A DNA stretch of 64,000 bases from Chlorops oryzae (lineage: Eukaryota; Arthropoda; Insecta; Diptera; Chloropidae). A program made the translations under genes and the position numbers. This document shows positions 2,517 to 50,090 of the stretch, piece after piece. Every line of letters begins with the position of its first letter. Positions within the stretch are counted from its first letter, which is position 1. The notes under the pieces are model-generated. The model worked only from the letters and a program-made list of their open reading frames with translations. It was not told the origin of the DNA and made no database searches. The stretch spans positions 53,882,878-53,946,877 of the forward strand of contig CM035807.1 of the NCBI GenBank assembly GCA_020466095.1, read 5' to 3'.

Positions 2517-5172
2517 ATGTGTGCATGGAATTCAAACGGCTTGGGCCGGCATAAGCTAGAAATCCAAAATTTTTTAATTCGTGAATCCGTTGATGTATTG
2601 CTTCTCTCAGAAACTCACTTAACTAATAAATGCTTCTTCGCTATTCCTGGATATATATTTTACAAAACCAATCATCCAGATGGTAAAGCACACGGAGGTA
2701 CAGGCATTCCTATCCGTAAGAGAGTTAGGCATTTCCTAATGGAATCGTATGCAACTACTTTTATACAAGCAAAAACAATAAGTATTTGGGCTAATAGCAA
2801 AAGCATGTCAGTCTCGGCGGTATACTGCCCACCGCGTCACACTATTCCAGAAAAAATGTATATAGATTTCTTCAAAATCCTCGGTGATAAATTCATCGCA
2901 GCTGGAGATTATAATGCAAAGCACACCCTCTGGGGTTCCCGTCTTTGTAATCCTAAAGGTGCTCAACTATATAGGGCAATTATGAATAAAAATAACAGTC
3001 TCGACTTTGTTTCCCCTAGGAAACCAACTTATTGGCCAGCGGACCCAAATAAATTACCAGATCTTATAGATTTTGGCATTATAAAAGGGATTAAAAGAGA
3101 ATCCATATCAACATATACAACGTTTGATCTGTCTTCAGATCATTCTCCAGTGTTATTCCTATTGAACGAAGGACCAAAACAAGTTGATATTCTCCGCAGA
3201 TTAACAAATTTCAATACCAATTGGCTTAAATACAAAAAGTATATAAGCTCACATATACACACCAATTACAAAATCGAAAGTAAAGAGCATATTGATGACG
3301 CCGTGACAGTTCTTACTTCTATGTTGACATCGGCAGCAGAGAACTCTACGCCTAAGTACATTAAAACGGAAAAGGTGTCCTTTACAAATACTGAAATAGA
3401 AAATCTGGTGGCCTGTAAAAGAAGGTGCAGGAGGGAATGGCAACAAACCCGATCACCAGCAGCTAAATGTAGATTGAAAGAAGCGGAAAATAAGCTCAAA
3501 GCAGCTCTTTCGAGGGAGAAACGATTAGAACAACATAAATTTGTGCAAAACGTTACTCCAAAGGGCAAAAATCAAAAATGCTTATGGCAATCAATACGTG
3601 GGCTGAAGACTCCGGTCGAAAGTGAATTCCCTATTAGAGTTCCTAACGGTGGGTGGGCGCGTAACGACGAAGAGAAGGCTAACGTGTTTGCTTTGCACCT
3701 TAGTAAGGTATTTCAACCAAATCCAGGTAGCTTTGTTCACCCTGTTACACAAAGTTCTGAAAACACTCAACATGTGCACTACGAAATAACTCCCAGTGAA
3801 ATCATTGACGTCATCAAGAATAAATAAGTCTGCAAAAAAGCTCCAGCTCCATGATTTGATTACTCCGAAAATGTTGAAAAACTTACCACTTATTGCAGTG
3901 GTGTTTATAACAAACCTTTTTAATGCAATCATAAAGTATGGTCATTTTCCACATGACTGGAAGAGATCGGTCATAATTATGGTACGGAAACCAGGTAAAG
4001 ATCCTTCTCAAGCCTCATCCTACAGGCCGATTAGTCTTCTTCCTTGTCTCTCGAAACTATTTGAAAAACTACTTATTCCGAAATTGTCGTCATTCTTACT
4101 AGAACAAAACATAATTCCCTCTCATCAGTTTGGATTTAGGGAAAAACACGGTACAATCGAGCAAGTTAATCGAATGACAAACGAAATAAGAATCGCATAC
4201 GAAAAAAAAGAATACTGCTCGGCGGTATCTTTAGATATTCAACAAGCATTCGACAAAGTTTGGCATGATGGGCTGAAATTTAAAATCAGGCAATTACTCC
4301 CTAAAAATGTTCATGCAGTCTTAAATTCTTATCTGAGTAATAGAAAATTCCAAGTAAAACAATTTTCATTTATAACAAAAGACTTTGTAATTAATGCCGG
4401 AGTTCCGCAAGGGAGCGTTGCCGGTCCCTTTTTATACCTTTTCTTTACAGCTGGCATTCCTATTAGTGGTCAAATTTTCACATCGACGTTTGCTGATGAT
4501 ACAGCATTTCAAAGTAGACACAAAAACGTGGTGGTGGCAACCAACGAGCTCCAAGCGCATTTAAATAATATCCAAAACTGGTTATCCCGTTGGCGTATTA
4601 AAGTTAACGAACAAAAATCTCGTCACATTATATTTACACTTAATAGAGGGGTCTCTCCTGACGCATTCCTCAATAACATTCGAATCCCTCAAGTTGAAGA
4701 AATAACATACCTCGGAGTTCATTTAGATAGAAGGCTGACCTGGCCCAAACATATCGAAGCGAAGCGGACTCAGATGAAACTTAAAGCAATTAGCTTGCAC
4801 TGGCTAATGATTAGTCGTTCCCCCCTAAAACTTGATTATAAAATCCTGTTATATAATCAAGTTATAAAACCGATATGGACGTACGGTTTACAACTCTACG
4901 GAAACGCAAGCGCTTCAAATATAGATATTCTGCAAAGAGCTCAGTCCAAAATCCTAAGATCAATTACAGGAGCTCCATGGTTCACTAAAAATGAACACAT
5001 CCATAGAGATCTAAAAGAAGAGACGGTTAAATCAGAATTAATGAAGATCAAGCAAAAATATTGCCAAAAATTGCAATCTCATGTAAATCTCCTCGCCAGA
5101 GAACTCGCAACTACTTCCTTTCTTTCGCGATTAAGAAGAAAGGACCGACCGACTATCCAATTCGATCCTTAG
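2517..5172 (+). pseudogene. LINE ORF2: endonuclease-reverse transcriptase (jockey type)
   Basis: ORF2 would make the nickase and polymerase for target-primed reverse transcription. The first part (2517-3827) is an apurinic-type endonuclease: CAWNSNG at the start, LLLSETHLT, GGTGIPI, AAGDYNAKH--WGS and a late SDHSPV. The second part (open from 3796) is the RT: PKMLKNL, YRPISLLPCLSKLFEKL, LDIQQAFDKVWHDGL, GVPQGSVAGPFLY and the active-site FADDTAF at about 4489, then YLGVHLD and a C-terminal thumb. The two halves are in different frames, with the break near 3800-3827, where the usual linker before the RT is garbled. Apart from this frameshift the gene is well preserved. No RNase H domain is visible, which fits the jockey clade. 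Confidence 0.85.
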
Positions 5173-15183: not shown

Positions 15184-16575
15184 CTACTTGGGCAGTTTTG
15201 TCCCATGAGTGGGTCCGCTAGGGCGTGGGGATCTAGTAGCTGCTATTGTTTCCGGATGTATGTTCCTTGCACGTTGCTCGGTGGACTTGCCATCTAACGG
15301 TGGAGCCTGTGGCTTGGAGGTACTTGGCTTCACCACAGGGTCAGGTGCCACTGAGTCGCCGTTGCTGGATGCTCCATGTGCCGTTTCTCCTTTTTCTTCT
15401 CTGTGGGGTGTCTTGCCAGTCCGTGTCTTGTTCGATCCACTGGGCATGGCGGAGTTACGTGCTTGGGATCTCGGCTCCCTCTTCACGCGCAGCATTTTCT
15501 GCGTGAAGTTTAAGCTCAGCTTCCCCGCTTGCGCGATGATTTTATTTTTCGACGCTTCGTCCACTGACACTGTCAGCGTCTCACCTCCGGATTTGTCCTT
15601 CTCCGTTCTCAGAATTTGCCAGCAAGAAGTCCGCAGACCACCATTCTGCTTTTCAAGCCGCGCTAGGAGACATTCATGTGGTAGGACAGCACTACGGTGA
15701 ATATGTGTGATGCACGCGAATGTTTTGGGCATTTCGTCGCCCTGAAACACTTTGAGTGCAGCATCAGGGAATAGTTGCAATTTCGGTATACACCCTATCA
15801 ACCACTCCTTTGTTTCGCCGTTACAACACGTCAGTGTTAGCCATCCATCTTTGTTGGCGCTAGTGACGAAGCCATATGTCTTATCATGGCTTGGGAGCTT
15901 GTCAATTTCAGCCCGTAGATTGGCCTTCACCAGATCCATCTGCTCGGTGCTGAGATTGACAGCAGGAAAGTCCCTATGTGGTATCGCAACTTTGCACGCT
16001 GTTGCGACATCCCTGTAGGAACGCGTAGGATGTGTGTTAGGAGGTGTTTTCGTGCCCGTCTGATGAGATGCCCTAGGCCTCTTCATCACCGGTCGTGGAG
16101 CTTCCTCTGGAGTGGTATTGTTGGATCTGCATCTTTTATTGACACTTGGTCCAGCACCATCTCCTTTCGACACAATGGAGGCCTTATTAATCGCGTAGCG
16201 CTCGCGTTCTGTCTTCTTTGCCTCCTCAGAGCTCATGACCTCTTTTAACATCGCCTGGATCCTCTGTCTTTGAGCGCCGGTGAAGTATTCTTACTTATTC
16301 CTATCACCTGAGTCAGCTTGACCCTTCGTGGTAGCGCCCGTGGATGACGACGATGCACCATCATTGTCCATGGCAACAAGGGTGGTATCGGCACACTGCA
16401 CATCCCCACTGCTTGATTCCAAGGGACTCTTAGCAGTAGCAGATGTACCGTCCTGTATCTTGAGAGATCGCTCAAGTCTCTTCTCAAGATCATTTCCGGC
16501 CTTGGTCGGCGAACGGAGTAAAGCTTTTTCCTCTGACTCCGTGATTTAGTTAATTTTTTGAATATTTGTTTCCAT
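15184..16575 (-). pseudogene. LINE ORF1 (gag-like nucleic-acid-binding protein)
   Basis: A single frame runs from an ATG at 16575 to a stop at 15184, interrupted by two in-frame TAA codons (after METNIQKIN and after SGDRNK). The N-terminal third is Ser/Thr/Glu rich and the middle basic with a proline-rich tract. The C-terminal half has a folded segment, STEQMDLVKANLRAEIDKLP, FVTSANKDGWLTLTCCNGET, then W-IL---KDKSGGETLTVSVD. This arrangement resembles the DUF4780-like domain seen in ORF1 of some insect LINEs; that name is from memory and unverified. It presumably packaged the LINE RNA. Confidence 0.65.
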
Positions 16576-24935: not shown

Positions 24936-26334
24936 TTAGGTTTTTCTTGCCTACTGACCCTTTCGTCAGCCTACCAACATCTTTTCATAGAAAGACTTGA
25001 AGGAACATCAGGCTTCACAGAAATAAATATGGGTACGGAGGAAATTGTTTCCGGATTTGATTACATCCTACACAAGGTTGACCCCAATGAAATAAAAAAT
25101 GTCCTCGCAACATTTCTGGAAACGGAGAAGGCATTAAATAATTCAATATACGATGGACTCATTTCAGCACAAGCTGACGCTATTAACGCAATCTTACATA
25201 CGCCTTTTCGACGGTATCGGCACGGGAATGAAATGGATTTTTGGGACCATGGACGCAAACGACAAGCAGACAGTTGAAGATCATTTCACAATCATTGATA
25301 AAAACAACCACGAGCTTTTAGAGAGATCTAATCAGCAAATACACATAAACAATAACTTTAGAGACTCGATACAAAAAATAAGGACTTTAGTTAAGAATGA
25401 TCAAAACCACATTAAGAAACTCTACGAGAATTACGCCAACCTTACCAATGAGCTAGGCCAAGATGAAGTAGCGATCAGACTTCTCCTCAAGATACAGCTT
25501 TTGAAAAATCAGGCCGAAATAGTGCAACAAAACATAGCTGCAGCCAGGACGGGCATAATTCAACCAGGCATATTGTCAACTGAGGAAATCACTAAATTCA
25601 ACATTGGATTTGAAAAACTTAAAGGAATTTCACTGAGCGTGGCAACATTCAACGAAGAGATTATCTTATTTATTATCAAAGTTCCGTCTGAAAACATATC
25701 TCTAACCAAGACATTAATTGTCCCGACGCCAAACCACAATCACATGCAGATAAAAGCAGAATTAGAGACAATAGTAGAGTGGAACAACTTCACTTTTACC
25801 TTCGAAACTGGAAAATCAGTTTTTGAATTGAAACGAAGGCGACACTGCGTGAGAACGGGCGAATGCGTTTTAGTCCGAAATGACAAACAAGAAATTCTAG
25901 AGCTCGAGGATAATGTTATTATTTTAGTTAATGGAAATCAGTCAGCGCTGAATAGTACCTGCGATTCAAAACGGTTGGTTTTGACGGGGAACCTCTTCAT
26001 ATCATACGAAAATTGCACTTTCCAACTAGGAAATTTGAAATTTGCTTCACGTGTCATGAACTATAAACAAATTTTCGTTGTACCTCAAGGCCGGGATCCA
26101 CTGCTAACAACGGATATACCAGATTTCCAGGATCTAGTACTAAATCAGGATACAGTCGCAAACGAGATCCAGGAATTGAAATTCCATCGAAACATACAAA
26201 GTCTGACAGGGATAATTGTCACAGTGCTCACTCTGAGCGCTCTCCTAACGACATGGTGCTGCGTCAAACGAGTACGGACACAGACAAAGGAGAAGAAACA
26301 AGGAAAGGAACCAGAAATACAGGATATAGTTTGA
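24936..26334 (+). pseudogene. Errantivirus env (F-like fusion glycoprotein)
   Basis: Env would be a type I membrane fusion glycoprotein made from a spliced message. A likely acceptor (ttcctttttag) lies at 24929-24939, directly before a hydrophobic signal-like segment ending SCLLTLSSA. The first frame runs to 25277; the rest of the protein is in another frame (about 25200-26334), so a frameshift breaks the gene near the expected cleavage and fusion-peptide region. After the break come IFGTMDANDKQ, a long heptad-rich segment, a Cys-containing domain, N-glycosylation-type sites, and a single membrane span (about 26203-26255, IIVTVLTLSALLTTW) with a basic cytoplasmic tail. The layout is that of 17.6/297/gypsy Env proteins related to baculovirus F. 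It is not functional as read. Confidence 0.85.
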
Positions 26335-26448: not shown

Positions 26449-27344
26449 CTACGAGCGAACAGCACTCTCACGGCCGCACCTTGAAACTTTAAGAATAAAA
26501 ACACTTGATCCAACGAGTACCCTCCGTTTGCGGATGGTGCCCTTTTTCCAGACGGCCCGGAGCTCTGCGAAGTATGGTGACAACGCAGGCAAAGAGGACG
26601 ACAATATTTCCGACGACCGGGTGAAATCTTCGCGCGCCACCTCGCATAGAAAGTTGCGGGTAATTTGACTCTCTTCCGGCGAAAAAACCATATGATGTGG
26701 CTGAAAACGACGACCGGCAGCCAAAGAAAACGCCAATCTCTCAGCAAACATTATAGTGAATAATCCACAGTCCGACGAATTACTCTGCTGCGGACAAGCA
26801 GGATAAAGAAAGGACAACGTTGATGAATCAAAAGTCCTCACGCCAATACCAAATATTTTATTCGATTCCCGTTGGAGAAAGTTACGCACGGAATCGGCTA
26901 TAAGTTTGGCATCGTGAGGTTTCAATGAATCAAAAATATACACCACTGGCCAGTCGACGATGAGCAGCATCAAATGGTTTTGCTCCAATATGGGCAACAC
27001 CAGCATATCATAGTGGAAAATATTTATACGACGCGTGTTACTATTCAGTCGAAAGGTAAGGTGATCAGGAACGTCAGAAGCGGTGAAAAGCGCTTATTCT
27101 CGGATTAGAGGGTACAAATGAGTATCAAACAAATGAACCCTCCGTAACTCAGGCCTTAGAAATTTTAATAATACCCATTGGAGACAAGCATTTACAACAT
27201 TATCGTTCAGCCGCACGCCTGTCACCAAATGCTGTATATCGTACGCACTTAGTTTGATGTGTTTAATGGAACTGAGGTATCTCATCTGTAAATATCCACA
27301 GTTTAATCCTTTTTACATAATTGTCGTATACTAACACTTACCAT
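26449..27344 (-). pseudogene. Ulp1/SENP-like cysteine protease (C48) with short intron and one in-frame stop
   Basis: C48 proteases cleave SUMO-type conjugates or precursors. From ATG 27285 the frame continues to 26449 with one TAA at 27096-27094 (codon 64). The N-terminal part matches the Ulp1 entry segment (LVTGVRLNDNVVNACLQWVL). The catalytic set is intact and correctly spaced: His at codon 104 (QNHLMLLIVD), Asp at 119 (IFDSLK), Gln at 167 and Cys at 173 (QSNSSDCGLF). Trp normally after the His is Leu. Just upstream the sequence atatg-GTAAGT (27341) ... TTTACAG (27286) reads as a perfect 56-nt intron, which would join an upstream ATG in phase. The tail RRFQPHHMVF and WKKGT mirror the protease in the intact retrotransposon at 48082. 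It could be a host or domesticated gene, or a remnant of another element. Confidence 0.75.
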
Positions 27345-28105
27345 ATTTTAAAAGGGGGAAGGGGAAAGCTAAATTAATTCAACGTTCTTTCCAGAAGTTG
27401 CCGAACGAATGACGAAAATTTTTAATATTAACTTAAAGGGCATTTTAAGCAACTCAAGCATTTTCGGCCCAACGTTAAAATTTTAACCTACTGAAAAGAA
27501 TAATTCAGCACTTCTGGAAAACGCGATAACTCGGTTATGGCAACATTAACAAATTAACTACTAACTTTTTATTCAAACCAACAGAAATGAAACTGAAACC
27601 ACTTGGCCAATGTATAAAAAATGGGGGAAAAATAAAATATAAGAAATAAGAAATAAAAAATAAAAAAAATAATATAAAAAAAATATATCACCCTTAAGTA
27701 AAATAATGTTTAAGAAAATATTAAATATGGAAAATTGTATTCGGTTAAGTAATAATCGGTTTTAAATTTAGAAAATATCAAAGGATACTTGTACGTCAGC
27801 TATAAGAATGTAATATTTACTCTTTAAGTCGCATGGACATCAACGGAAACTCAACGCCGAATTTTTAATACCGACCTTAGAACGTCACATCAACTTGCAG
27901 CGACATCTACATACCCATGAAGGAAGCTGACCTGCCGCACTCACGATCAACGGAAAATAAACAGCGGATTTGTAAACGCCATTTCTATAAGGTCATCATG
28001 TCTCTCCCGCGACATTCTCTTGGAAAAGGGAGGGATGTTGTGAGGAGTAGGGGGGATATGTTCGTTCTGGATGTGCAACTTTTTTTGTATGGAAAATCGG
28101 AAAAA
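27345..28105. other. AT-rich stretch; possible polypurine tract and LTR start
   Basis: No gene seen. At 28023-28045 a purine run (ggaaaagggaggga) is followed by tgttgtgaggag, which resembles an errantivirus polypurine tract plus LTR start and shares tgttgtgagg with 17512. It could be the displaced 3' boundary of the errantivirus whose env ends at 26334, but the LTR body is not preserved. Confidence 0.35.
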
Positions 28106-28615
28106 GACGCACATTGAAGATCTAGAAAATTTTTGTTCTTTTGTATGAGATGTCGCACATTTAAGATCTAAGATCTAGAAAATGTTTGTTCATTTGTATG
28201 AGATGTCGCACATTTAAGATCTAGAAAATTTTTGTTCATTTGTATGAGATGTCGCACATTTAAGATCTAGAAAATAATTGTTCATTTGTATGAGATGTCG
28301 CACATTTAAGATCTAGAAAATTTTTGTTCATTTGTATGAGATGTCGCACATCTAGAAAATTTTGGTTGGTTTATATGAGATGACATACATTTAGGTCTTT
28401 GGAAATTTTTGGAGGTTTATATGAGATGACATACATTTAGGTCTTTGGAAATTTTTGAAGTTTGTATGAGATGACATACATTTAGGTCTTTGGAAATTTT
28501 GGTTGGTTTATATGAGATGACATACATTTAGGTCTTTGGAAATTTAGGAAGTTTGTATGAGATGACATACATTTAGGTCTTTGGAAATTTTTGGAGGTTT
28601 ATATGAGAAGGTTCG
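28106..28615. repeat. 46-bp minisatellite with two sub-families
   Basis: About eleven units with a constant 46-bp period. The left half carries units of type catttaagatctagaaa, tttttgttcatttgtatg, agatgtcgca (28106-28350). The right half carries catttaggtctttggaaa, tttttggaggtttatatg, agatgacata (28355-28615). Both share the frame of the unit, so they descend from one ancestor and expanded separately in blocks. Confidence 0.9.
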
Positions 28616-29337
28616 CATTGAGCCTCATTGAAGAGGTGAGGGGGTGAGAAACTGGTTTTCATATGCACAGCCACAATTCTAGTATCGCTCTTTAGGAAAA
28701 TATTTTTTATCTATTCTATTAAATTAAAAAAAATATATCCAAAAATAAAAAAACAAAATTAAAGTTGAAAAAAAATAATACTTCCATGAGCCTCGAACCG
28801 GAGGCTTCTCGGTTAAGAGGCTAGCATTCATACTATACGCTGCATTCCCAACTTATTAGTTGCTGTCATACCCGCTATATATGCTGTAGACATAATGACG
28901 AGAGCACTTTTTCTCTCAGGTTCTGTAACATTTCAATGTTAATTCCCTGTTACAGCACGATTTCTCCCTCTGTTAAATCGATCGGTCTGTTAACGGATCC
29001 GCGTGTTCTAGCTAGCTTACATTGACTCTTGCTTATGGGTTCAAACCTTGTTGAAAGATAAAAATTTTTTAACATAAAAAAAAATTTTTTTTTTTTTTTT
29101 TTTTTTCAAAGAATAAAATGTAAATATATTAATAAAAAAGTTAAATTCTGATAAAAAACCTTTTTTATTCGGAATTTTTTGGTAAAATGTACTTGCCAAA
29201 AACAATTTTCGTCGATTTAATCCTTATATTTTTGAAATAAAAATTTTTTTTATCCATAGAATTGGAGCACATAAATAGCACATAATTCCCACCTATAAAC
29301 GATTTTTCGAAAAAATCGTTAAGTGCGAATTTTTGCA
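28616..29337. other. AT-rich stretch with B-box-like motif, no gene
   Basis: The minus strand at about 28790-28815 reads ggttcgaggct, close to a Pol III B box, and neighbouring bases resemble a tRNA anticodon arm, but the T-stem pairs as a simple 5-bp hairpin and no cloverleaf forms. This may be an old SINE head. A 24-bp T run lies near 29083-29106. Otherwise nothing recognised. Confidence 0.35.
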
Positions 29338-42108: not shown

Positions 42109-42406
42109 ACAGTGTGACGACCACAAAATCGTCACAACTTTGCACAAACAACAACGGGAAGAAACACAACGTCCACAAAAGACAACAACAACTGCAAGAA
42201 GACACAAAGCAGACATGCGCAACAACAACACAACTAAACGATCGAAATCGAACGGCGCGACGCAGCAGAGCAGCACGCAGAGCGCATGCGGATAATGCAT
42301 GTACACAGTCCAAAGGTCGACACGCAGGAAAAGCGTGACTCAGAGGCCAAAGGTCGACACGCACGAAAAGCGTGACTAATAGTCCAAAGGTCAGTCCAGA
42401 AATGGA

Positions 42407-42445
42407 TATAAAAGCAAGCGACGGCACAAGGAAAAGGCAGTCAGT
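42407..42445 (+). promoter_or_regulatory. LTR core promoter: TATA box and initiator
   Basis: TATAAAA at 42407-42413 is followed by TCAGT at 42441-42445, the arthropod initiator consensus, about 35 bases from the TATA start to the initiator A. This is a convincing RNA polymerase II core promoter and would set the U3/R boundary near 42443. Confidence 0.75.
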
Positions 42446-42699
42446 ACGAGAACAGCACAAGAGAAAATTCCTAATCGTAGTTAACGAGACCTTGCCTCAC
42501 AAGCGATTAAAGAATTTAGGACAAATCTGAAGGATAATTGTTTGATCCTGGGTTTCTGGTAACGAGACAAAGCCTCACAAGGAAACTAGGTCCGATTATT
42601 ATCCTTTCAGAGCATCTTTCTCAGAGCATCCTCGACAGTAAAACCGCGACAACGAACTGCAGTGGACATCGACTAGAGGACCAACAGTGAAGCCCTCCG

Positions 42700-42850
42700 T
42701 GGAACTACAGTGAAACCCTGCTCGTGGAACTACAGTGAAACCCTGCTCGTGGAACTACAGTGAAACCCTGCTCGTGGAACTACAGTGAAACCCCGCTTCA
42801 TGGAACTACAGTGAAACCCCGCTTCGTGGAACTACAGTGAAACCTCACTT
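42700..42850 (+). repeat. 25-26 bp tandem array in the LTR (about six units)
   Basis: Each unit is tggaactacagtgaaaccc plus ctgctcg or cgcttcg. The array sits in R/U5 downstream of the promoter and is copied exactly in the 3' LTR (49688-49838). Confidence 0.9.
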
Positions 42851-43060
42851 CAGAGGACTCCAGCAAGACGCAGCCAACAATTACACGCAAATTACTTGAA
42901 TTATATATTGAATTACATTGAATTATATATTACATTTACTGAATTATATTGAAATTAAACAACCATTGAAAATCCTTAGATAACTGCGTTGAAATATAAA
43001 TTTCTTGTACGACCCCTGGACACGACTGAGCGCTACCCCGGCAGGATAGGTCGTTACAAG

Positions 43061-43073
43061 TGGCGCCCGAGCA
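43061..43073 (+). promoter_or_regulatory. Primer-binding site (tRNA-Lys type)
   Basis: TGGCGCCCGAGCA two bases after the LTR. TGGCGCCCG is the reverse complement of the 3' end of tRNA-Lys used by HIV and by Osvaldo-like elements. The same sequence follows the LTR end at 54353. Confidence 0.85.
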
Positions 43074-43097
43074 AAATTTGACAAGAAGACACACAAG

Positions 43098-44189
43098 ATG
43101 GTAAAAACTACATGGATATACTCTCTTCGGAAAGAGGACCTCTTAAATTACTGCGAGACTGTAAAAATCGATACCCAAGGCACCGTCGACGAGCTACGAA
43201 AACGACTGGCCGCATTCGCAAATGAGCACGCATCAGATGACGAATACGCACGAATATTACACGAATGGGAGGTAAAACACGCAAGAGCACCTTCACCACT
43301 TTTACCACTGGATGCAGACGCAAACCAAAATAATCCAACGGGAGCCATTCCGAAATACGTACAAGCAGAAACTCTCCGAACAACCACATCGCCACCGTCA
43401 GTAACCGCAATTTCCATGCCAGCATACACGGACATTATCGACAAGGTCCGCAAATGGGGACTGAAGTACGACGGCAAGCAGGACGCTCTGAGCTTCATAG
43501 AAAGAGTGGAGGAATTGGCAGAAGTCTACGACCTACCGAAAAATATGCTGCCCAGAACAATGCCAGAACTTTTAAAAGTTATGGCCCTATCCTGGTACAG
43601 GAACAACAATGCAGCATGGCGCATCTGGAGCAACTTCAAGCGAGATTTCCTAGAGTTCTTCCTACCACCACGATATTTCGAGCTATTAGAGGACACTATT
43701 CGCAGAAGAGAACAACAAGAAGAAGAGCCGTTTAAACAATACCTATTAGCAATGCAGGAATTGATGCGACACACCGAATACACGGAAATAAAGAAACTGG
43801 ATCGCATATATGAGAATAGCACCCACGAATTCCAGGGATATGCCAAGAGACGAGACTTTGCAACACTGAGAGGACTCATCGATTTAGCAGACGATTTCGA
43901 AAGGTTAAAAAGCAAAAAACAAGACAGAGCGAAACAAAAGAAACAGCCACAAAACCGAACCGAAGAGCGAAGTCGCCGAGTTACCGAACAAAAACCACCA
44001 GAACCAGCACAAGACACCCAAGACAAAATCGATGTCTACAATGCATGCCACCGATGCGGCCAACCAGGCCATCGCCAATTTGGCTGTAAAAATCCACAAA
44101 TCCTATTTTGTTGGATTTGCGGGAAACGAGGAGTAAGGACAATTGAATGCTGCAGGAAATCGGGAAACGAGCAAGGGGACCGCCAATAA
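43098..44189 (+). CDS. Gag polyprotein with N-terminal SAP-like domain
   Basis: 363 residues; forms the particle and binds RNA. ATG 43098 is the first after the primer site. Residues about 6-41 (YSLRKEDLLNYCETVKIDTQ then GTVDELRKRLAAF) have the spacing of a SAP domain, a helix-extended-helix DNA-binding fold. The gag core lies at about 150-275 (WYRNNNAAWRIWSNFKRDFL, EEPFKQYLLAMQELM). A Lys/Arg/Gln-rich linker is followed by one good zinc knuckle (C317-X2-C320-X4-H325-X4-C330) and a second in which the His is Val (CWICGKRGVRTIEC). It ends at TAA 44187-44189, overlapping pol by about 45 nt. The intact frame fits recent activity. Confidence 0.9.
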   Translation: MVKTTWIYSLRKEDLLNYCETVKIDTQGTVDELRKRLAAFANEHASDDEYARILHEWEVKHARAPSPLLPLDADANQNNPTGAIPKYVQAETLRTTTSPPSVTAISMPAYTDIIDKVRKWGLKYDGKQDALSFIERVEELAEVYDLPKNMLPRTMPELLKVMALSWYRNNNAAWRIWSNFKRDFLEFFLPPRYFELLEDTIRRREQQEEEPFKQYLLAMQELMRHTEYTEIKKLDRIYENSTHEFQGYAKRRDFATLRGLIDLADDFERLKSKKQDRAKQKKQPQNRTEERSRRVTEQKPPEPAQDTQDKIDVYNACHRCGQPGHRQFGCKNPQILFCWICGKRGVRTIECCRKSGNEQGDRQ

Positions 44190-47100
44190 CGAGGCACGGC
44201 GACAAACCCCTACAGGAGGCCTCGAATTTAAAATTCTTAAATAATACCATAGTTGCTCATATTAAACTGGGAGAAATACCCTTAGTAGCAACCATCGACA
44301 CCGGAGCCACAAGAAACTACATAAGTAGGGCTATGGCCGAACAAATTCGGGACTCCAGCCAACGACACAAAATTCGTGCCAACATACAACTAGCAGACGG
44401 CACCAAAACACTCGTAACTGAAGCAACTACAACCACGCTACAACTCGGACAAAACCGCCTACAAATCGAATTAGCTATATTAGAGCAGGTGGTAGACGAC
44501 GTCATACTCGGCATAGACACACTGGGAGCGCTAGACGCACAGGTGGAGATTGCAGGCCAGAGTATAAAAATTCCAAAGATTCAAACCGCTGACTGGAATG
44601 CACTCTCAATACGAGAAGTCGCCGAAAACACAACCGAGTCACAAAGCAAACCAATCTCCCGAGCAGAAGCGGAAGAAATAATTCAAACAGAAATAAAACG
44701 TTTCGAAAGCATTGAAGGCCCGTCTAACATCGCAAAACACTACATAAGAGTAAAAGACGACATTCCCATCAAAGCCAGATACTTTCCGCAAAACCCTGCA
44801 AAACAAGAAATCATAAACAAAGAAATCGATGATATTCTCGAAAAAGGATGCATAGAACCATCGAACAGCCCATACAGTGCACCAACGGTCCTCGTACGCA
44901 AGAAAAATGGTAAATGGAGACTCTGCATCGACTACAGGCAACTAAATGCTAAATCAATCCCTGACGCATACCCATTACCACGAATAAGCCACATTTTGGA
45001 CCGTCTGAAGGATGCAAAAATTTTTAGCAGTCTGGACCTTAAAAATGGCTACTGGCAAATTCCAATGGACGAGGCAAGCAAACAGTATACCGCGTTCACT
45101 GTGCCCGGACGGGGCCTTTTCCAATGGAAGGTAATGCCGTTCGGATTACACTCAGCACCCGCAACTTTCCAACGGGCATTAGACTCAGTAATAACGCCTG
45201 AACTAGAACCGTTCGCTTTTGCGTACCTCGACGACATCATCGTACTAGGTCGAACACTGGAAGAACATATGACGAATTTAGTAGAAGTTTTTAGAAGATT
45301 ACGTGAGGCCAACCTCAAAATAAATCCAGAAAAATGCGAATTTCTAAAAACAGAAATCAAATACCTTGGTCATATGGTAAGCGACAAAGGGATTCAAACA
45401 GACCCGTCAAAAATTGAAGCCATCGAACGTCTCAAGCCACCAACGAACATAAAAGAACTACGGCAGTGCATCGGAATCACTTCATGGTACAGACGATTCG
45501 TACCCGAATTCGCAGACACCATACATCCCTTGACAACACTACTCAAAAAAGGAGTAAACTGGGTATGGACCGAAGAGCACCAACAAGCTTTCGAGAATTT
45601 AAAAAAGAAACTTACTGAAGCACCCATCCTTGCATGCCCGGACTTTAATAAACAATTCATTTTACAAACAGATGCCAGCGACTACGGACTTGGTGCAGTG
45701 TTGACACAGGATGATAATGGAAACGAGAGAGTAATAGCTTATGCAAGCCGCCACCTTAACAAACCGGAAACAAACTACTCAACCACCGAAAAAGAATGCC
45801 TTGCGATCGTTTGGGGAATTCGAAAAATGCGTCACTACCTCGAGGGATACAATTTTATTGTCATCACTGACCACCTCTCATTAAAATGGTTAAATTCTAT
45901 CGAAAACCCATCAGGACGCATCGCACGATGGGCACTAGAGCTGCAACAATATAACTTCGAAGTTCGTTATAGGAAGGGGAGAGAGAACGTCATTGCTGAC
46001 GCTCTATCAAGAGATCCACTGGAGACAACACGACGCATACACGAAGAAGAAATACCACCTCTGCCCAAGGACTGGGTCACACGGAAAACAGAGGAAATTA
46101 AAAAAGAGCCACATAAATTTCCAGAATATATAATAGAAAACGGAAATTTATATAGACACCTACCGCCAAACGCAGACGATGAAGACAGCGTGGCTTGGAA
46201 ACTATGTATAGGAAGGAAAGACATCGACCGAGTGCTAAACGAAAATCACGATCACCCAACAGCTGGTCACCTGGGTATACGGAAGACATTCCTCCGAACA
46301 GCAAAAAAATATTTTTGGCCGAGCATGATGAAAGACATACGGAAACATGTGTTTCGATGCAAAAGCTGTCAACATTTTAAGGTAAACCAACAGAAGCCAG
46401 CAGGATATATGCTCACTAAAATCGCAGATGAGCCGTGGGCCATCCTATGCGCAGACTTCGTGGGACCATTGCCACGCTCTATACATGGGAACACAACACT
46501 ACTGGTATTCTACGACAAATTTTCAAAATGGGTAGAATTAGTGCCACTACGAAGCGCCACTGCCGACGCAGTCCGGAAAGCCCTTCGGGAGCGAATAATC
46601 GCACGATACGGGGTACCCAAGGTCTTGCTAACCGACAATGGCACACAATTCACAAGCCGTAATTTAGAAAATTTTCTGGAAGAAATGGGTATACATCACC
46701 AGTATACGGCCCCATACACACCCCAAGAAAATCCCACCGAACGAGCAAACCGCACGATAAAAACAATGATTGCACAGTTTACACAATCATCACACAAACA
46801 CTGGGACGAGGCGCTACCCGAAATCATGTTGGCCATAAACACCAGTGTTGCGGACACCACAGGCTTTAGCCCAGCCATGCTGACGCAAGGCAGAGAGCCG
46901 CGACTACCCAAAAGTCTTTTCGATGAAAAAACAACAGGTACAGGGGCAGAAGCACTAACAGTCACACAACGGCACAACCGACTTCAAGAAATTTTCAAAA
47001 TTGTCGAAGTGAACCTAGCAAAGGCAAGCCAGGAACAAGCTCGCGCCTACAACCTACGGCGACGTCCGTGGAAACCTTATCGAGGACAACTGGTACTCCT

Positions 47101-47350
47101 ACGAACTCACCCACTGTCGAAAGCCATTGACGATTTCGCGGCAAAACTGGCACCAAAGTTCGATGGACCATTTATGGTTGAATCCTTCTCATCTCACGTG
47201 ATAGTGAAACTGAGAGACGGTAAAACGTTGAAGACAGCTCACATCTCTCAGCTTAAGCCATTTTACACTGATGAATCCGACCTGCAACAAAATGAAAACG
47301 TTGAGCAACCGCCAACACAAAACAATAACGTACCTTTTCCGTCGAAATAA
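44147..47350 (+). CDS. Pol polyprotein: protease, reverse transcriptase, RNase H, integrase
   Basis: 1067 codons open from 44145, expressed as a Gag-Pol fusion by the -1 frameshift rather than from the internal ATG. Protease: DTGATRNYIS at residue 51. RT: WRLCIDYRQLN, SLDLKNGYWQIP, MPFGLHSAPATF and the catalytic YLDD at residues 360-363. RNase H: LQTDASDYGLGAVL at about 508 and NYSTTEKECLAIVW. Integrase: H-H-C-C finger at about 701-743 (HPTAGHLGIRKT through CKSCQ), then Asp770 (ADFVGPLP), Asp830 (LTDNGTQF) and Glu865 (NPTERANRT), a DD34E/DD35E spacing. It ends with YNLRRRPWKPYRG and a KFDGPF module. No break is visible. Confidence 0.96.
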   Translation: MLQEIGKRARGPPITRHGDKPLQEASNLKFLNNTIVAHIKLGEIPLVATIDTGATRNYISRAMAEQIRDSSQRHKIRANIQLADGTKTLVTEATTTTLQLGQNRLQIELAILEQVVDDVILGIDTLGALDAQVEIAGQSIKIPKIQTADWNALSIREVAENTTESQSKPISRAEAEEIIQTEIKRFESIEGPSNIAKHYIRVKDDIPIKARYFPQNPAKQEIINKEIDDILEKGCIEPSNSPYSAPTVLVRKKNGKWRLCIDYRQLNAKSIPDAYPLPRISHILDRLKDAKIFSSLDLKNGYWQIPMDEASKQYTAFTVPGRGLFQWKVMPFGLHSAPATFQRALDSVITPELEPFAFAYLDDIIVLGRTLEEHMTNLVEVFRRLREANLKINPEKCEFLKTEIKYLGHMVSDKGIQTDPSKIEAIERLKPPTNIKELRQCIGITSWYRRFVPEFADTIHPLTTLLKKGVNWVWTEEHQQAFENLKKKLTEAPILACPDFNKQFILQTDASDYGLGAVLTQDDNGNERVIAYASRHLNKPETNYSTTEKECLAIVWGIRKMRHYLEGYNFIVITDHLSLKWLNSIENPSGRIARWALELQQYNFEVRYRKGRENVIADALSRDPLETTRRIHEEEIPPLPKDWVTRKTEEIKKEPHKFPEYIIENGNLYRHLPPNADDEDSVAWKLCIGRKDIDRVLNENHDHPTAGHLGIRKTFLRTAKKYFWPSMMKDIRKHVFRCKSCQHFKVNQQKPAGYMLTKIADEPWAILCADFVGPLPRSIHGNTTLLVFYDKFSKWVELVPLRSATADAVRKALRERIIARYGVPKVLLTDNGTQFTSRNLENFLEEMGIHHQYTAPYTPQENPTERANRTIKTMIAQFTQSSHKHWDEALPEIMLAINTSVADTTGFSPAMLTQGREPRLPKSLFDEKTTGTGAEALTVTQRHNRLQEIFKIVEVNLAKASQEQARAYNLRRRPWKPYRGQLVLLRTHPLSKAIDDFAAKLAPKFDGPFMVESFSSHVIVKLRDGKTLKTAHISQLKPFYTDESDLQQNENVEQPPTQNNNVPFPSK
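44162..44210 (+). promoter_or_regulatory. -1 ribosomal frameshift signal between gag and pol
   Basis: The heptamer GGGAAAC (44162-44168) is in the slippery phase of the gag frame (G GGA AAC), the form used by FIV. Six bases later a nested stem can form: GGGG (44175-44178) with CCCC (44207-44210) and CGCC (44181-44184) with GGCG (44198-44201). The pol frame is closed upstream by a TGA at 44142-44144 and open from 44145, and gag stops at 44187, so the slip must happen in exactly this window. Another GGGAAAC at 44121 is in the wrong phase. Confidence 0.8.
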
Positions 47351-47920
47351 ATATCCACGGCGACACAGGGCTCCCTCGGCGACGGCACGATAAAAAATTC
47401 ATCCAAAACGGAATCGTCAGAGGAAAAAATTGGTAAAAAAAAAAAAAAAAAAATATATATTCGAGCATAAACTGCTTCAAATTGTAAAATTTTTAAAGAA
47501 CCAGAGGAAAAGAAAACATATGAAAACTAAAGCCCGGTTATAATACAAAATAGGCAAATCTACATTATAACTGAAAATAAAATCCACAAACCCAATAGGA
47601 ATCAGGTCATTGACCCAAGAAAGGAAGAAAATGGGAAAATTAATATCAGCCAATGGCACACAAGTAGATAGGAGTAATCACACACATAAACACATATGGA
47701 ACAGAGGAAAGTAATGTGCAACAGTTGGTTAGAAAAGCAGCAGACAAGAATTATGAAATATGCTTTCCCACTCTATGCCAAAAAAAAAAATATGCATATG
47801 CAGTAACAACGGAGGATCGACGGCGGCGTCGCAGCACTCATGAGATCAAATAAAGTTCAAGGCCATATAATATGCAAAAGAAAGTCTCGACCGAGGATAA
47901 TGGAAAAAATGCAAATATGA

Positions 47921-47934
47921 TTTCTCCTTTTCAG
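47921..47934 (+). promoter_or_regulatory. Candidate 3' splice acceptor
   Basis: tttctccttttcag followed by ggaaat is close to an ideal acceptor (polypyrimidine tract plus CAG). A splice from a donor in the leader or gag would give a subgenomic mRNA starting about 150 nt upstream of the Ulp1-like ATG, as errantiviruses do for env. No experimental support. Confidence 0.45.
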
Positions 47935-47999
47935 GGAAATAGCGTTATTGTCAAATTTATTTCTTTTTCATACAACAACAAATCCTTAAATTAGAACAT

Positions 48000-48036
48000 T
48001 ATAAAAGGGAGCAGTATCCCGACGAATAAATCATTT
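48000..48036 (+). promoter_or_regulatory. Candidate internal promoter for the Ulp1-like gene
   Basis: TATAAAAGGG (48000-48009) and, 33 nt from the T, an initiator-like TCATTT (48031-48036) precede the ATG at 48082. Both match insect consensus. If used, the protease gene has its own transcript inside the retrotransposon. This competes with the splice hypothesis. Confidence 0.5.
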
Positions 48037-48081
48037 TGCGAGTAAAATACAACGCGATCACAATTACAAATTTTTTTAAAC

Positions 48082-48972
48082 ATGCAACACCCAACTGGAA
48101 ATTCCGCCGGAGTCATCGGAACATACCCAAAGACAGGCCGAGGTTATTCAATCTTCAAGACGGATGTGGAGAGATTGGCCGAAGGAAAATGGGTGAATGA
48201 CACCATCATCGACGTTTACGGGGCGTGGTTAATCCAAGGGCTGATATCACCTGAAGATCGGGAAAAGGTATATTTATTCAGCGGTCTTTTCTTCCCACAG
48301 CTACTGGCGATCAAAAATGGAGAACGGCCACGAGATTTTTTGAATGGATGGTTGCGAAGGGCAAAAATCTTCGAGAGAGATTATGTCATCATACCAGTTG
48401 TTGACAAATTCCACTGGACGCTCGTGATCGTGGACAGCACCCGGATTCTACACTGCGACTCACTAAGAGGAACCCGGCAACACGACGTGGCGCAACTAAT
48501 CCACCAGTTCCTCCAAGACGAAGCAGCACGAACCGGACCGGAAAATGTAGAAAGAGTAAAGGCGATGAAGATCGTGGAAGTGCCCACAGCACAGCAAGAA
48601 AATGGTGCCGACTGCGGTTTATTTACCTTGAAATTTTTAGAGCGGTTCCTCACGACCATTCGCGCGGGGAAACGGTTCCAACCACACCACCTCATATTTG
48701 AAGCAGCGACGACATTGCCCACACGCCAAAAGTTGGTAGAGGTGTTCCAGGATATCTGCGACAAAGATGTGTTATGGTCGGAACTGATGAACGGAGTACT
48801 CGGAAGCGCACAACATGAAAATTTGGAGGAAAAACTACAGCAGATCGGGGTCGAGATGCGAAAACGCTGGAAGAAGGGCACCCAAAGCAACTGTGTGCGG
48901 AAGCTTGGAACGATCACGGCCATAATCTCGATAACGCGAGCTGGAAAAATAAAAATACAAAGGAAAAATTAA
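48082..48972 (+). CDS. Ulp1/SENP-like cysteine protease (peptidase family C48) in the env position
   Basis: 296 residues. C48 enzymes cut SUMO or related modifiers from proteins, or mature them, in nucleus or cytosol. The N-terminal half has the Ulp1 entry segment (VERLAEGKWVNDTIIDVYGA, LFFPQLL). The catalytic tetrad is complete: His111 followed by Trp (DKFHWTLVIVD), Asp126 (HCDSLRG), Gln172 and Cys178 (QENGADCGLFTLKFLERF). A conserved-looking tail RFQPHHLIF and KRWKKGTQSN is shared with the minus-strand copy at 26449-27285. There are no signal peptide, membrane span or zinc finger. ATG 48082 is the first in frame after the promoter-like motif. The ORF ends 129 bp before the LTR. Its function for the element is inference: processing of Gag-Pol, removal of SUMO marks from integrase or chromatin, or countering host silencing. 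Domain call is secure; the exact substrate is unknown. Confidence 0.92.
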   Translation: MQHPTGNSAGVIGTYPKTGRGYSIFKTDVERLAEGKWVNDTIIDVYGAWLIQGLISPEDREKVYLFSGLFFPQLLAIKNGERPRDFLNGWLRRAKIFERDYVIIPVVDKFHWTLVIVDSTRILHCDSLRGTRQHDVAQLIHQFLQDEAARTGPENVERVKAMKIVEVPTAQQENGADCGLFTLKFLERFLTTIRAGKRFQPHHLIFEAATTLPTRQKLVEVFQDICDKDVLWSELMNGVLGSAQHENLEEKLQQIGVEMRKRWKKGTQSNCVRKLGTITAIISITRAGKIKIQRKN

Positions 48973-49085
48973 CTGCGAAACATTCAAACCAATAACACAG
49001 CTGATCACGGGAAAAATAAAGCCGTGTTAAAATGAATGGGACCCACACGAGCACACAAGTTTGACAAAGGCAACGTCACGTTTCG

Positions 49086-49100
49086 GAAGAAAGGAGGGAG
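49086..49100 (+). promoter_or_regulatory. Polypurine tract
   Basis: gaagaaaggagggag immediately before the 3' LTR is the expected primer for plus-strand DNA synthesis. Confidence 0.85.
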
Positions 49101-50046
49101 TGTGACGACCACAAAATCGTCACAACTTTGCACAAACAACAACGGGAAGAAACACAACGTCCACAAAAGACAACAACAACTGCAAGAAGACACAAAGCAG
49201 ACATGCGCAACAACAACACAACTAAACGATCGAAATCGAACGGCGCGACGCAGCAGAGCAGCACGCAGAGCGCATGCGGATAATGCATGTACACAGTCCA
49301 AAGGTCGACACGCAGGAAAAGCGTGACTCAGAGGCCAAAGGTCGACACGCACGAAAAGCGTGACTAATAGTCCAAAGGTCAGTCCAGAAATGGATATAAA
49401 AGCAAGCGACGGCACAAGGAAAAGGCAGTCAGTACGAGAACAGCACAAGAGAAAATTCCTAATCGTAGTTAACGAGACCTTGCCTCACAAGCGATTAAAG
49501 AATTTAGGACAAATCTGAAGGATAATTGTTTGATCCTGGGTTTCTGGTAACGAGACAAAGCCTCACAAGGAAACTAGGTCCGATTATTATCCTTTCAGAG
49601 CATCTTTCTCAGAGCATCCTCGACAGTAAAACCGCGACAACGAACTGCAGTGGACATCGACTAGAGGACCAACAGTGAAGCCCTCCGTGGAACTACAGTG
49701 AAACCCTGCTCGTGGAACTACAGTGAAACCCTGCTCGTGGAACTACAGTGAAACCCTGCTCGTGGAACTACAGTGAAACCCCGCTTCATGGAACTACAGT
49801 GAAACCCCGCTTCGTGGAACTACAGTGAAACCTCACTTCAGAGGACTCCAGCAAGACGCAGCCAACAATTACACGCAAATTACTTGAATTATATATTGAA
49901 TTACATTGAATTATATATTACATTTACTGAATTATATTGAAATTAAACAACCATTGAAAATCCTTAGATAACTGCGTTGAAATATAAATTTCTTGTACGA
50001 CCCCTGGACACGACTGAGCGCTACCCCGGCAGGATAGGTCGTTACA
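49101..50046 (+). mobile_element. 3' LTR (946 bp)
   Basis: Same length and, on reading, same sequence as 42113-43058, including promoter (49395-49433) and 25-bp array. Identity of LTRs implies a recent insertion. Confidence 0.95.
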
Positions 50047-50090
50047 ACAGTCGTTATGTATATTCGAAAAATGTGAAAAATTACGTATTA

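Follow-up and report, generated by a model that had tools for sequence, protein, structure and literature searches.

A predicted SUMO-protease accessory gene in an intact Ty3 retrotransposon of Chlorops oryzae

Several groups of transposable elements, namely Ginger1, MULE/KIU, Crypton, and NeSL/Utopia, have already been described as carriers of Ulp1 domains. Ginger1 DNA transposons combine a Gypsy-like integrase with a Ulp1 domain (PMC2836005), and Ulp1 is also found on transposons in the KIU/VANDAL Mutator-like elements (MULEs; PMC13317346) and in oomycete Cryptons (PMC3212892). For KIU elements, a link to escape from silencing has been described (PMC13317346). Non-long-terminal-repeat (non-LTR) retrotransposons of the NeSL/Utopia group in nematodes carry a Ulp1-like cysteine protease (PMC4640811), and insect Ty3 elements of the mdg1 group have accessory genes, sORF1 and sORF2 (PMC11952523). 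Here, we analyzed a stretch of 64,000 nucleotides of the Chlorops oryzae genome (hereafter the window; assembly GCA_020466095.1, contig CM035807.1, positions 53,882,878 to 53,946,877 of the forward strand), which contains at 42113-50046 a complete Ty3/gypsy LTR retrotransposon with a third open reading frame (ORF3) assigned to the Ulp1/SENP-type proteases (family C48). Among the papers listed in our literature search, which did not extend to Repbase or subscription journals, none was found to describe a C48 gene within an LTR retrotransposon or an endogenous retrovirus of insects. Neither Ulp1 nor SUMO is mentioned in PMC6338049 or PMC13172572, and "C48" in PMC8127270 is a sample label, not a protease.

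The interpretation that we favor, tentatively and with a little less than even confidence, is that of an intact Ty3 retrotransposon with a conserved accessory gene in third place, predicted to encode a SUMO-removing protease that would likely strip SUMO from silencing host factors.

Architecture of the element and identity of ORF3

As proposed in a first-pass annotation made from the sequence alone, both LTRs of the element are 946 bp long, match at 946/946 positions, and have ACAG on either side. Intact gag and pol genes, also claimed there, were confirmed, with Pfam domains in both. The full LTR identity suggests a recent insertion, and nothing beyond that. The features of the element are as follows:

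42109..42112, no strand: target site duplication ACAG, left copy, read from the letters
42113..43058, plus strand: 5' LTR with TG...CA ends and a TATA box, TATAAAAG, at 42407
43061..43072, plus strand: primer binding site TGGCGCCCGAGC, sequence read directly
43098..44189, plus strand: gag, 363 amino acids (Retrotrans_gag PF03732, E 1e-5)
44147..47350, plus strand: pol, 1067 amino acids (Pfam: aspartic protease, reverse transcriptase, RNase H, integrase)
44162..44168, plus strand: GGGAAAC heptamer, in phase (G GGA AAC) within the gag/pol overlap
48082..48972, plus strand: ORF3, 296 amino acids, Ulp1/SENP-type C48 protease (Pfam, solved relatives, alignment, model)
48412..48615, plus strand: stretch with catalytic His111, Asp126, Gln172, and Cys178 (alignment; Cys178 codon checked)
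48886..48966, plus strand: predicted C-terminal three-stranded sheet, residues 269-295, in the basic tail (AlphaFold model)
49085..49100, plus strand: polypurine tract GGAAGAAAGGAGGGAG, sequence read directly
49101..50046, plus strand: 3' LTR, 946 bp, same sequence as the 5' LTR
50047..50050, no strand: target site duplication ACAG, right copy, read from the letters

The primer binding site is presumably of the tRNA-Lys-like type, and the GGGAAAC heptamer at 44162 is suited as a candidate -1 frameshift site for gag/pol. Pfam matches of gag to a SAP-like N-terminus (0.002) and a CCHC motif (0.053) fell below the cut-off. The pol protein contained the YLDD motif of reverse transcriptase (RT) and the HHCC, rve, and DGPF motifs of integrase, in the order protease, RT, RNase H, and integrase, with the H2C2/rve integrase 3' of RNase H. 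Each LTR also contains a tandem array of 25-26-bp units (42673-42889, and again 49661-49877), and the LTR lengths of 847-1001 bp among other copies may reflect a difference in unit number.

An AT-rich spacer of 731 bp separates pol from ORF3. No env gene was recognized in the element, ORF3 being the sole plus-strand ORF of at least 80 amino acids that lies wholly between pol and the 3' LTR; one further plus-strand ORF of at least 80 amino acids begins 65 bp 5' of the 3' LTR and extends into it. An envelope protein was rejected as the identity of ORF3, since no membrane segment was found in it.

The first-pass annotation had read ORF3 as a C48 protease from a 296-codon frame with His111, Asp126, Gln172, and Cys178 in Ulp1 order, and the residues were confirmed where it had placed them. 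The profile search agreed, as ORF3 matched Peptidase_C48 with 76.7 bits (curated cut-off 20.7) and an E-value of 3e-21, and its closest solved relative was SENP2 (E 3.8e-19). The four catalytic residues were unchanged in 7/7 aligned sequences, including the presumed host Ulp1, and the predicted model of ORF3 has the SENP fold. A single-sequence model was poor (mean predicted local confidence, pLDDT, 46.7), yet all 33 structures that it matched in Foldseek at E <=0.001 were C48/CE-clan enzymes. In a viral fold library, the best matches of ORF3 were putative cysteine proteases of Feldmannia viruses; scans of viral contigs gave no match. Protein homologue searches with ORF3 (0/859 candidates at E 1e-3) or with six aligned C48 sequences (0/2495 at E 1e-3) returned nothing, which reflects the limits of the search and not absence. 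Residues 254-296 form a strongly basic tail with an isoelectric point of 11.9, and the fold matches in the VIA listing end by residue 240, the fold of the tail being that of the model only.

It is conceivable, and in our view quite improbable, that the target of ORF3 is NEDD8, ubiquitin, or a different ubiquitin-like modifier and that its role lies, for instance, in shielding element proteins from degradation or in blocking an antiviral response. NEDP1 scores like SENP in the fold comparison of the ORF3 model; the relatives by sequence speak against this possibility, as SENP/Ulp enzymes occupy the first 18 of the 24 rows in the list of solved structures, in which NEDP1 does not appear at E-values of up to 1. 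We predict that the ORF3 protein cleaves SUMO.

Copies, selection, and sister families

The genome (442 Mb, 1044 contigs) contained at least 136 ORF3-like matches (132 of 625 candidates scored), and at least 28 places, including that in the window, carry ORF3 at 97-100% identity over at least 279 of its 296 residues. Twenty of these 28 places were read with their flanks. ORF3 was intact in 20/20, a count biased by the ranking of the copies by ORF3, while gag was full length in 16 (with one more truncated where the retrieved sequence ends) and pol in 10. Both LTRs were recognizable in 15 of the 20 copies, 14 of which had a 4-bp duplication, and the LTR pairs differed at 1-7 positions (including up to three bases beyond the LTR), with one indel in three pairs. 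The young age that had been suggested for the element was borne out for its family.

Forty-three pol places were scored (of 8682 candidates), 33 of them at 86-100% identity to the pol of the window. In 32 of these 33 close copies, a C48 match in the same orientation follows pol at a distance of at most 3 kb; at the exception, C2:54508712, the locus is rearranged, and copies run in either direction. Tables were compared by hand to match the coordinates of pol with those of C48 and of the third ORFs. A one-off chimera, which the first-pass annotation had considered, is rejected by the places found for ORF3 and by the C48 genes behind the close pols.

That annotation had also called for a comparison of nonsynonymous and synonymous substitution rates (dN/dS) between copies, which was made against two diverged subfamilies. 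The dN/dS of ORF3 was 0.110 (dS 1.21) against the 78%-identical subfamily L030 and 0.165 (dS 0.53) against L029. The value was 0.090 for the protease part (residues 26-215) and 0.118 for the 3' end of pol (143 codons, against L030), and a comparison of the window group with a 98% group gave 0.46-0.50, resting on 11-13 changes only. By these sequence comparisons, ORF3 is under purifying selection, which over longer time is about equal to that on pol.

These values bear on the possibility that ORF3 is a passenger, namely a host Ulp1 gene that was captured recently and has no function for the element. Its codon usage correlates with that of pol less closely (r 0.56) than does that of gag (r 0.77), and the coding strand becomes less A-rich at ORF3, as would suit a newcomer. 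Against this stand the dN/dS of 0.11-0.165 over dS of 0.53-1.21, the retention of C48 behind 32/33 close pols, and the identity of just 26% between ORF3 and the host Ulp1, compared with 47% between the host Ulp1 and SENP2. A recent capture was rejected on the dN/dS and identity values, and the passenger explanation is extremely improbable and already contradicted.

Sixteen further pols were assigned to sister families, 10 at 58-60% identity and six from a separate listing. Among the C48 matches listed, none was found in the same orientation at up to 3 kb from these pols (0/16), and no C48 was found in the 1.6 kb behind the pol of one sister element that was read directly. Fifteen of the 16 pols are followed directly by a match, in some cases weak (E ~1e-4), to the third ORF of the sister family L057:

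L057 347-967: third ORF, 226 amino acids, 3' of pol and preceded by a TATA/initiator pair of its own

This ORF has no Pfam domain above the cut-off, and it gave 100 match rows in the genome, some of which are pieces of one place. The lack of a listed C48 behind the sister pols likely reflects a clade-specific gain in the window lineage or a loss in the sister families.

C48 genes in other retroelements and their origin

A search of the genome with PF02902 found at least 150 places (150 scored of 513 candidates), all above the cut-off, and the best of them (162.5 bits) is presumably the host Ulp1. The genomic context was read for a few of these places, and four lineages were found to carry C48 adjoining env. 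In L053, an errantivirus-type pol, C48 (a 314-amino-acid frame), and env follow one another in one orientation. In L054, env (PF07253, 7.7e-20) precedes C48, and in L055 an env-type protein, which has no Pfam match and is 32% identical to the L054 env (E 1e-53), does so. In L052, an env C-terminus (54% over 48 residues, E 9e-11) lies on the opposite strand about 150 bp past the end of C48. The first-pass annotation had placed the C48 gene of the window element in the env slot; the gene does sit 3' of pol where env would be, and this description is too narrow for the genome as a whole. Because C48 adjoins env in other families, "accessory gene" is the better name.

At L051 (C3:68829100-68832100), C48 and env lie in one frame and most of the integrase is gone. 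A C48-env fusion was rejected here, as the locus, when compared with L053, looks like a member of that family derived by deletion, and it was therefore not counted as a separate arrangement. In the public sequence P0014, C48 is fused behind the integrase in one ORF; 0/31 places of this genome matched by P0014 reach its C48 part.

The window itself holds a second C48 arrangement, in a separate element with a broken pol:

25153..26331, plus strand: env (Gypsy family; PF07253, E 9.4e-13), 49% identical to the L054 env
26455..27344, minus strand: relic of a second, divergent C48 gene with one internal stop, tail to tail with the env

No LTRs of this element, which lies at 19-27 kb, were found. The relic (frame 27285-26455) is 28.5% identical to ORF3 and 52% identical to the C48 of L052. 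In both the relic and L052 (2017-3199), an ATG abuts GTAAG, and an AG follows at the start of the C48 frame in the same phase, 56 nt on in the relic and 60 nt on in L052. The resulting gene model of the relic has its ATG at 27344-27342, a predicted intron at 27341-27286 (56 nt), and exon 2 from 27285. Of the three other ATG|GTRAG sites on the two strands of the window, only one has a YAG 50-75 nt on. Two observations call for caution about the predicted intron, namely that the AG in L052 is also the stop codon bounding the frame, and that exon 2 of the relic begins with its own ATG. We predict an intron in this antisense C48 gene, an arrangement known from two loci. The intron could survive reverse transcription because it would not be spliced out of the genomic RNA, and such an antisense-strand intron should be the pattern expected of a real antisense retroelement gene. 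The antisense gene of human T-cell leukemia virus type 1 (HTLV-1) offers a comparison. Close to the relic, at 28067-28616, is a tandem array with mostly 46-bp spacing.

With regard to origin, the C48 genes may be independent captures of a host gene by separate families and not one gene passed among elements, which we consider rather doubtful. The families share only 22-41% identity and differ in the position of C48, as independent captures would have it. An unrooted tree of nine rows argues in the other direction, since the host Ulp1 and human SENP2 are grouped (100/99) apart from all seven element-borne rows, and the four env-type families cluster, weakly, with one another (87/93).

The C-terminal tails bear on the same question, and homology of the ORF3 tail to the tails of other third ORFs is no more than suggestive, which also suits independent captures. 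With a tail profile of four families, ORF3 scored 13.0 bits, whereas the highest score among 1000 shuffles was 10.7, and L030 scored only 8.5 bits, with four shuffles scoring higher. A profile of eight C48 tails gave L057 1.5 bits, no higher than shuffle level. With a profile of three non-C48 tails, shuffles equaled or exceeded the real tail in 11/500 cases for ORF3, 3/500 for L030, 70/500 for L052, and 69/500 for the window relic; L053 was not among the rows listed. A tail motif, drawn from tails including that of P0014, was present in the last 60 residues of 4/120 pol homologues (expected 0.32), one of them being P0014 and another P0051, which is probably a chance match.

Elsewhere in the window, a 355-amino-acid ORF at 15184-16251 (minus strand) matched DUF4780 (E 1e-33), and two adjoining ORFs at 2517-5172 contain endonuclease and RT domains resembling a non-LTR retrotransposon.

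Expression, proposed function, and comparison with known systems

We predict that ORF3 is made as a separate mRNA from its own TATA/initiator promoter:

48000..48036, plus strand: predicted internal promoter for ORF3, with TATAAAAG (48000-48007) and TCATTT (48031-48036), A at offset 33

Such a pair is read against the general consensus for the initiator and its spacing from the TATA box. The pair at 48000/48031 is the only one of its kind in the window, and 9/5000 shuffles of the spacer contain one. TATAAAA is retained in 4/4 subfamilies compared; an initiator-like partner is present in the window element (offset 33), in L017 (32), and, only if TCACTT is allowed, in L030 (31), and none was found in L029. 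In the sister family L057, TATAAAAG and TCAGTC, also at offset 33, lie 5' of the different third ORF. The promoter block is no better conserved than the remaining spacer in the subfamily comparison. In the 78% subfamily, conservation of some blocks of the non-coding spacer at 47591-47750 (up to 36/40 identical) exceeds that of the promoter region.

A transcript spliced between the gag start and an acceptor at 47935 was rejected, as a reading by eye met a stop before ORF3, and there is no ATG between 47918 and 48081; expression of ORF3 therefore requires either an internal promoter or a different donor. An origin of the internal promoter as a copy of the LTR was also rejected, since shared words are of at most 10 bases and the LTR has no pair under the same pattern.

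In the mechanism that we propose, ORF3 would be transcribed from this promoter into a separate mRNA, and its protein, which is predicted to combine a SENP fold with a basic C-terminal tail and to lack membrane segments, would act in the nucleus on SUMO-dependent piRNA (PIWI-interacting RNA) and heterochromatin silencing, presumably on Panoramix, Su(var)2-10, and their partners. Removal of SUMO from these silencing factors would keep the element transcribed. Because the C48 protein is separate, conserved, and non-membrane, this is the best fit, and we prefer escape from SUMO-dependent silencing over protein maturation or help with integration on indirect grounds. Fly piRNA silencing uses SUMO through the Su(var)2-10 ligase (PMC7272611), and Panx with mutated SUMO sites loses silencing, which is restored by non-cleavable SUMO, while cleavable SUMO on Panx is mostly taken off by endogenous enzymes (PMC13195609). 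In yeast, Ty1 RNA and mobility rise with mislocalized Ulp1, which is ascribed to reduced SUMOylation (PMC8585004).

The main rival is that ORF3 deSUMOylates Gag or integrase, or cuts the polyprotein in an adenain-like manner, and thereby aids particle maturation, nuclear entry, or integration. It draws on the fusion behind the integrase in P0014, where C48 could therefore travel with the particle, and on Ginger1, whose Gypsy-integrase-like transposases are also fused to Ulp1 or OTU domains (PMC2836005). The window element already encodes an aspartic protease, its ORF3 stands apart from the other genes and has a promoter-like pair to itself, and sister families manage without C48, all of which speak against this rival. 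So does the lineage with an antisense C48 and a predicted intron, the product of which would therefore be made apart from Gag-Pol. We consider a role on the proteins of the element itself unlikely.

Beyond the window element, escape from silencing may extend to a more general picture, which we put forward with less confidence than the reading for the single element. Insect endogenous retroviruses and Ty3 elements may have in the SUMO protease a genuine accessory gene, with a role like that of lentiviral accessory genes, spread through many families of one genome in at least four positions, including the intron-bearing antisense one, as a counter-weapon against SUMO-dependent piRNA silencing. 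The slot behind pol in the window lineage, with its own promoter, would hold exchangeable cargo, either C48 or, in the sister families, the 226-amino-acid protein without a known domain. SUMO is a central switch in piRNA-guided and heterochromatic silencing in flies, and a retroelement SUMO protease kept by selection would, if this is true, represent a direct transposon counter-defence. To our knowledge, transposon counter-defence antagonists of this kind are hard to find in animals. The spread of C48 in env-bearing elements at different positions, including an antisense gene for which splicing is predicted, would likewise place insect endogenous retroviruses alongside the complex retroviruses, which have accessory genes.

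Compared with the known carriers of Ulp1 domains, Ginger1 elements are cut-and-paste transposons with terminal inverted repeats, no RT, and C48 inside the transposase (PMC2836005), whereas the window element has LTRs and RT. NeSL/Utopia elements are non-LTR and target-specific, with the protease N-terminal in the RT protein (PMC4640811), unlike the separate ORF 3' of pol in an element with LTRs, and the KIU/VANDAL MULEs and Cryptons are DNA transposons of plants and oomycetes. The sORF1 and sORF2 genes of the mdg1 group differ in that they are short and mostly 5' of gag, with sORF2 likened to fusogens (PMC11952523). Errantivirus-type elements with a Gypsy env are alike in that four such lineages in this genome have C48 next to env, and different in that the window element is without env. 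The Ty3/gypsy elements (Metaviridae) of insects are also close to the window element; of the 120 pol homologues listed, 20 carry a species name, 12 of these being Drosophila, at 52-65% identity. They share with the window element the LTRs, 4-bp duplication, primer binding site, polypurine tract, gag, protease-RT-RNase H-integrase order, and a GPY/F-like motif. They have env or nothing where the window element has a C48 gene preceded by a promoter-like pair.

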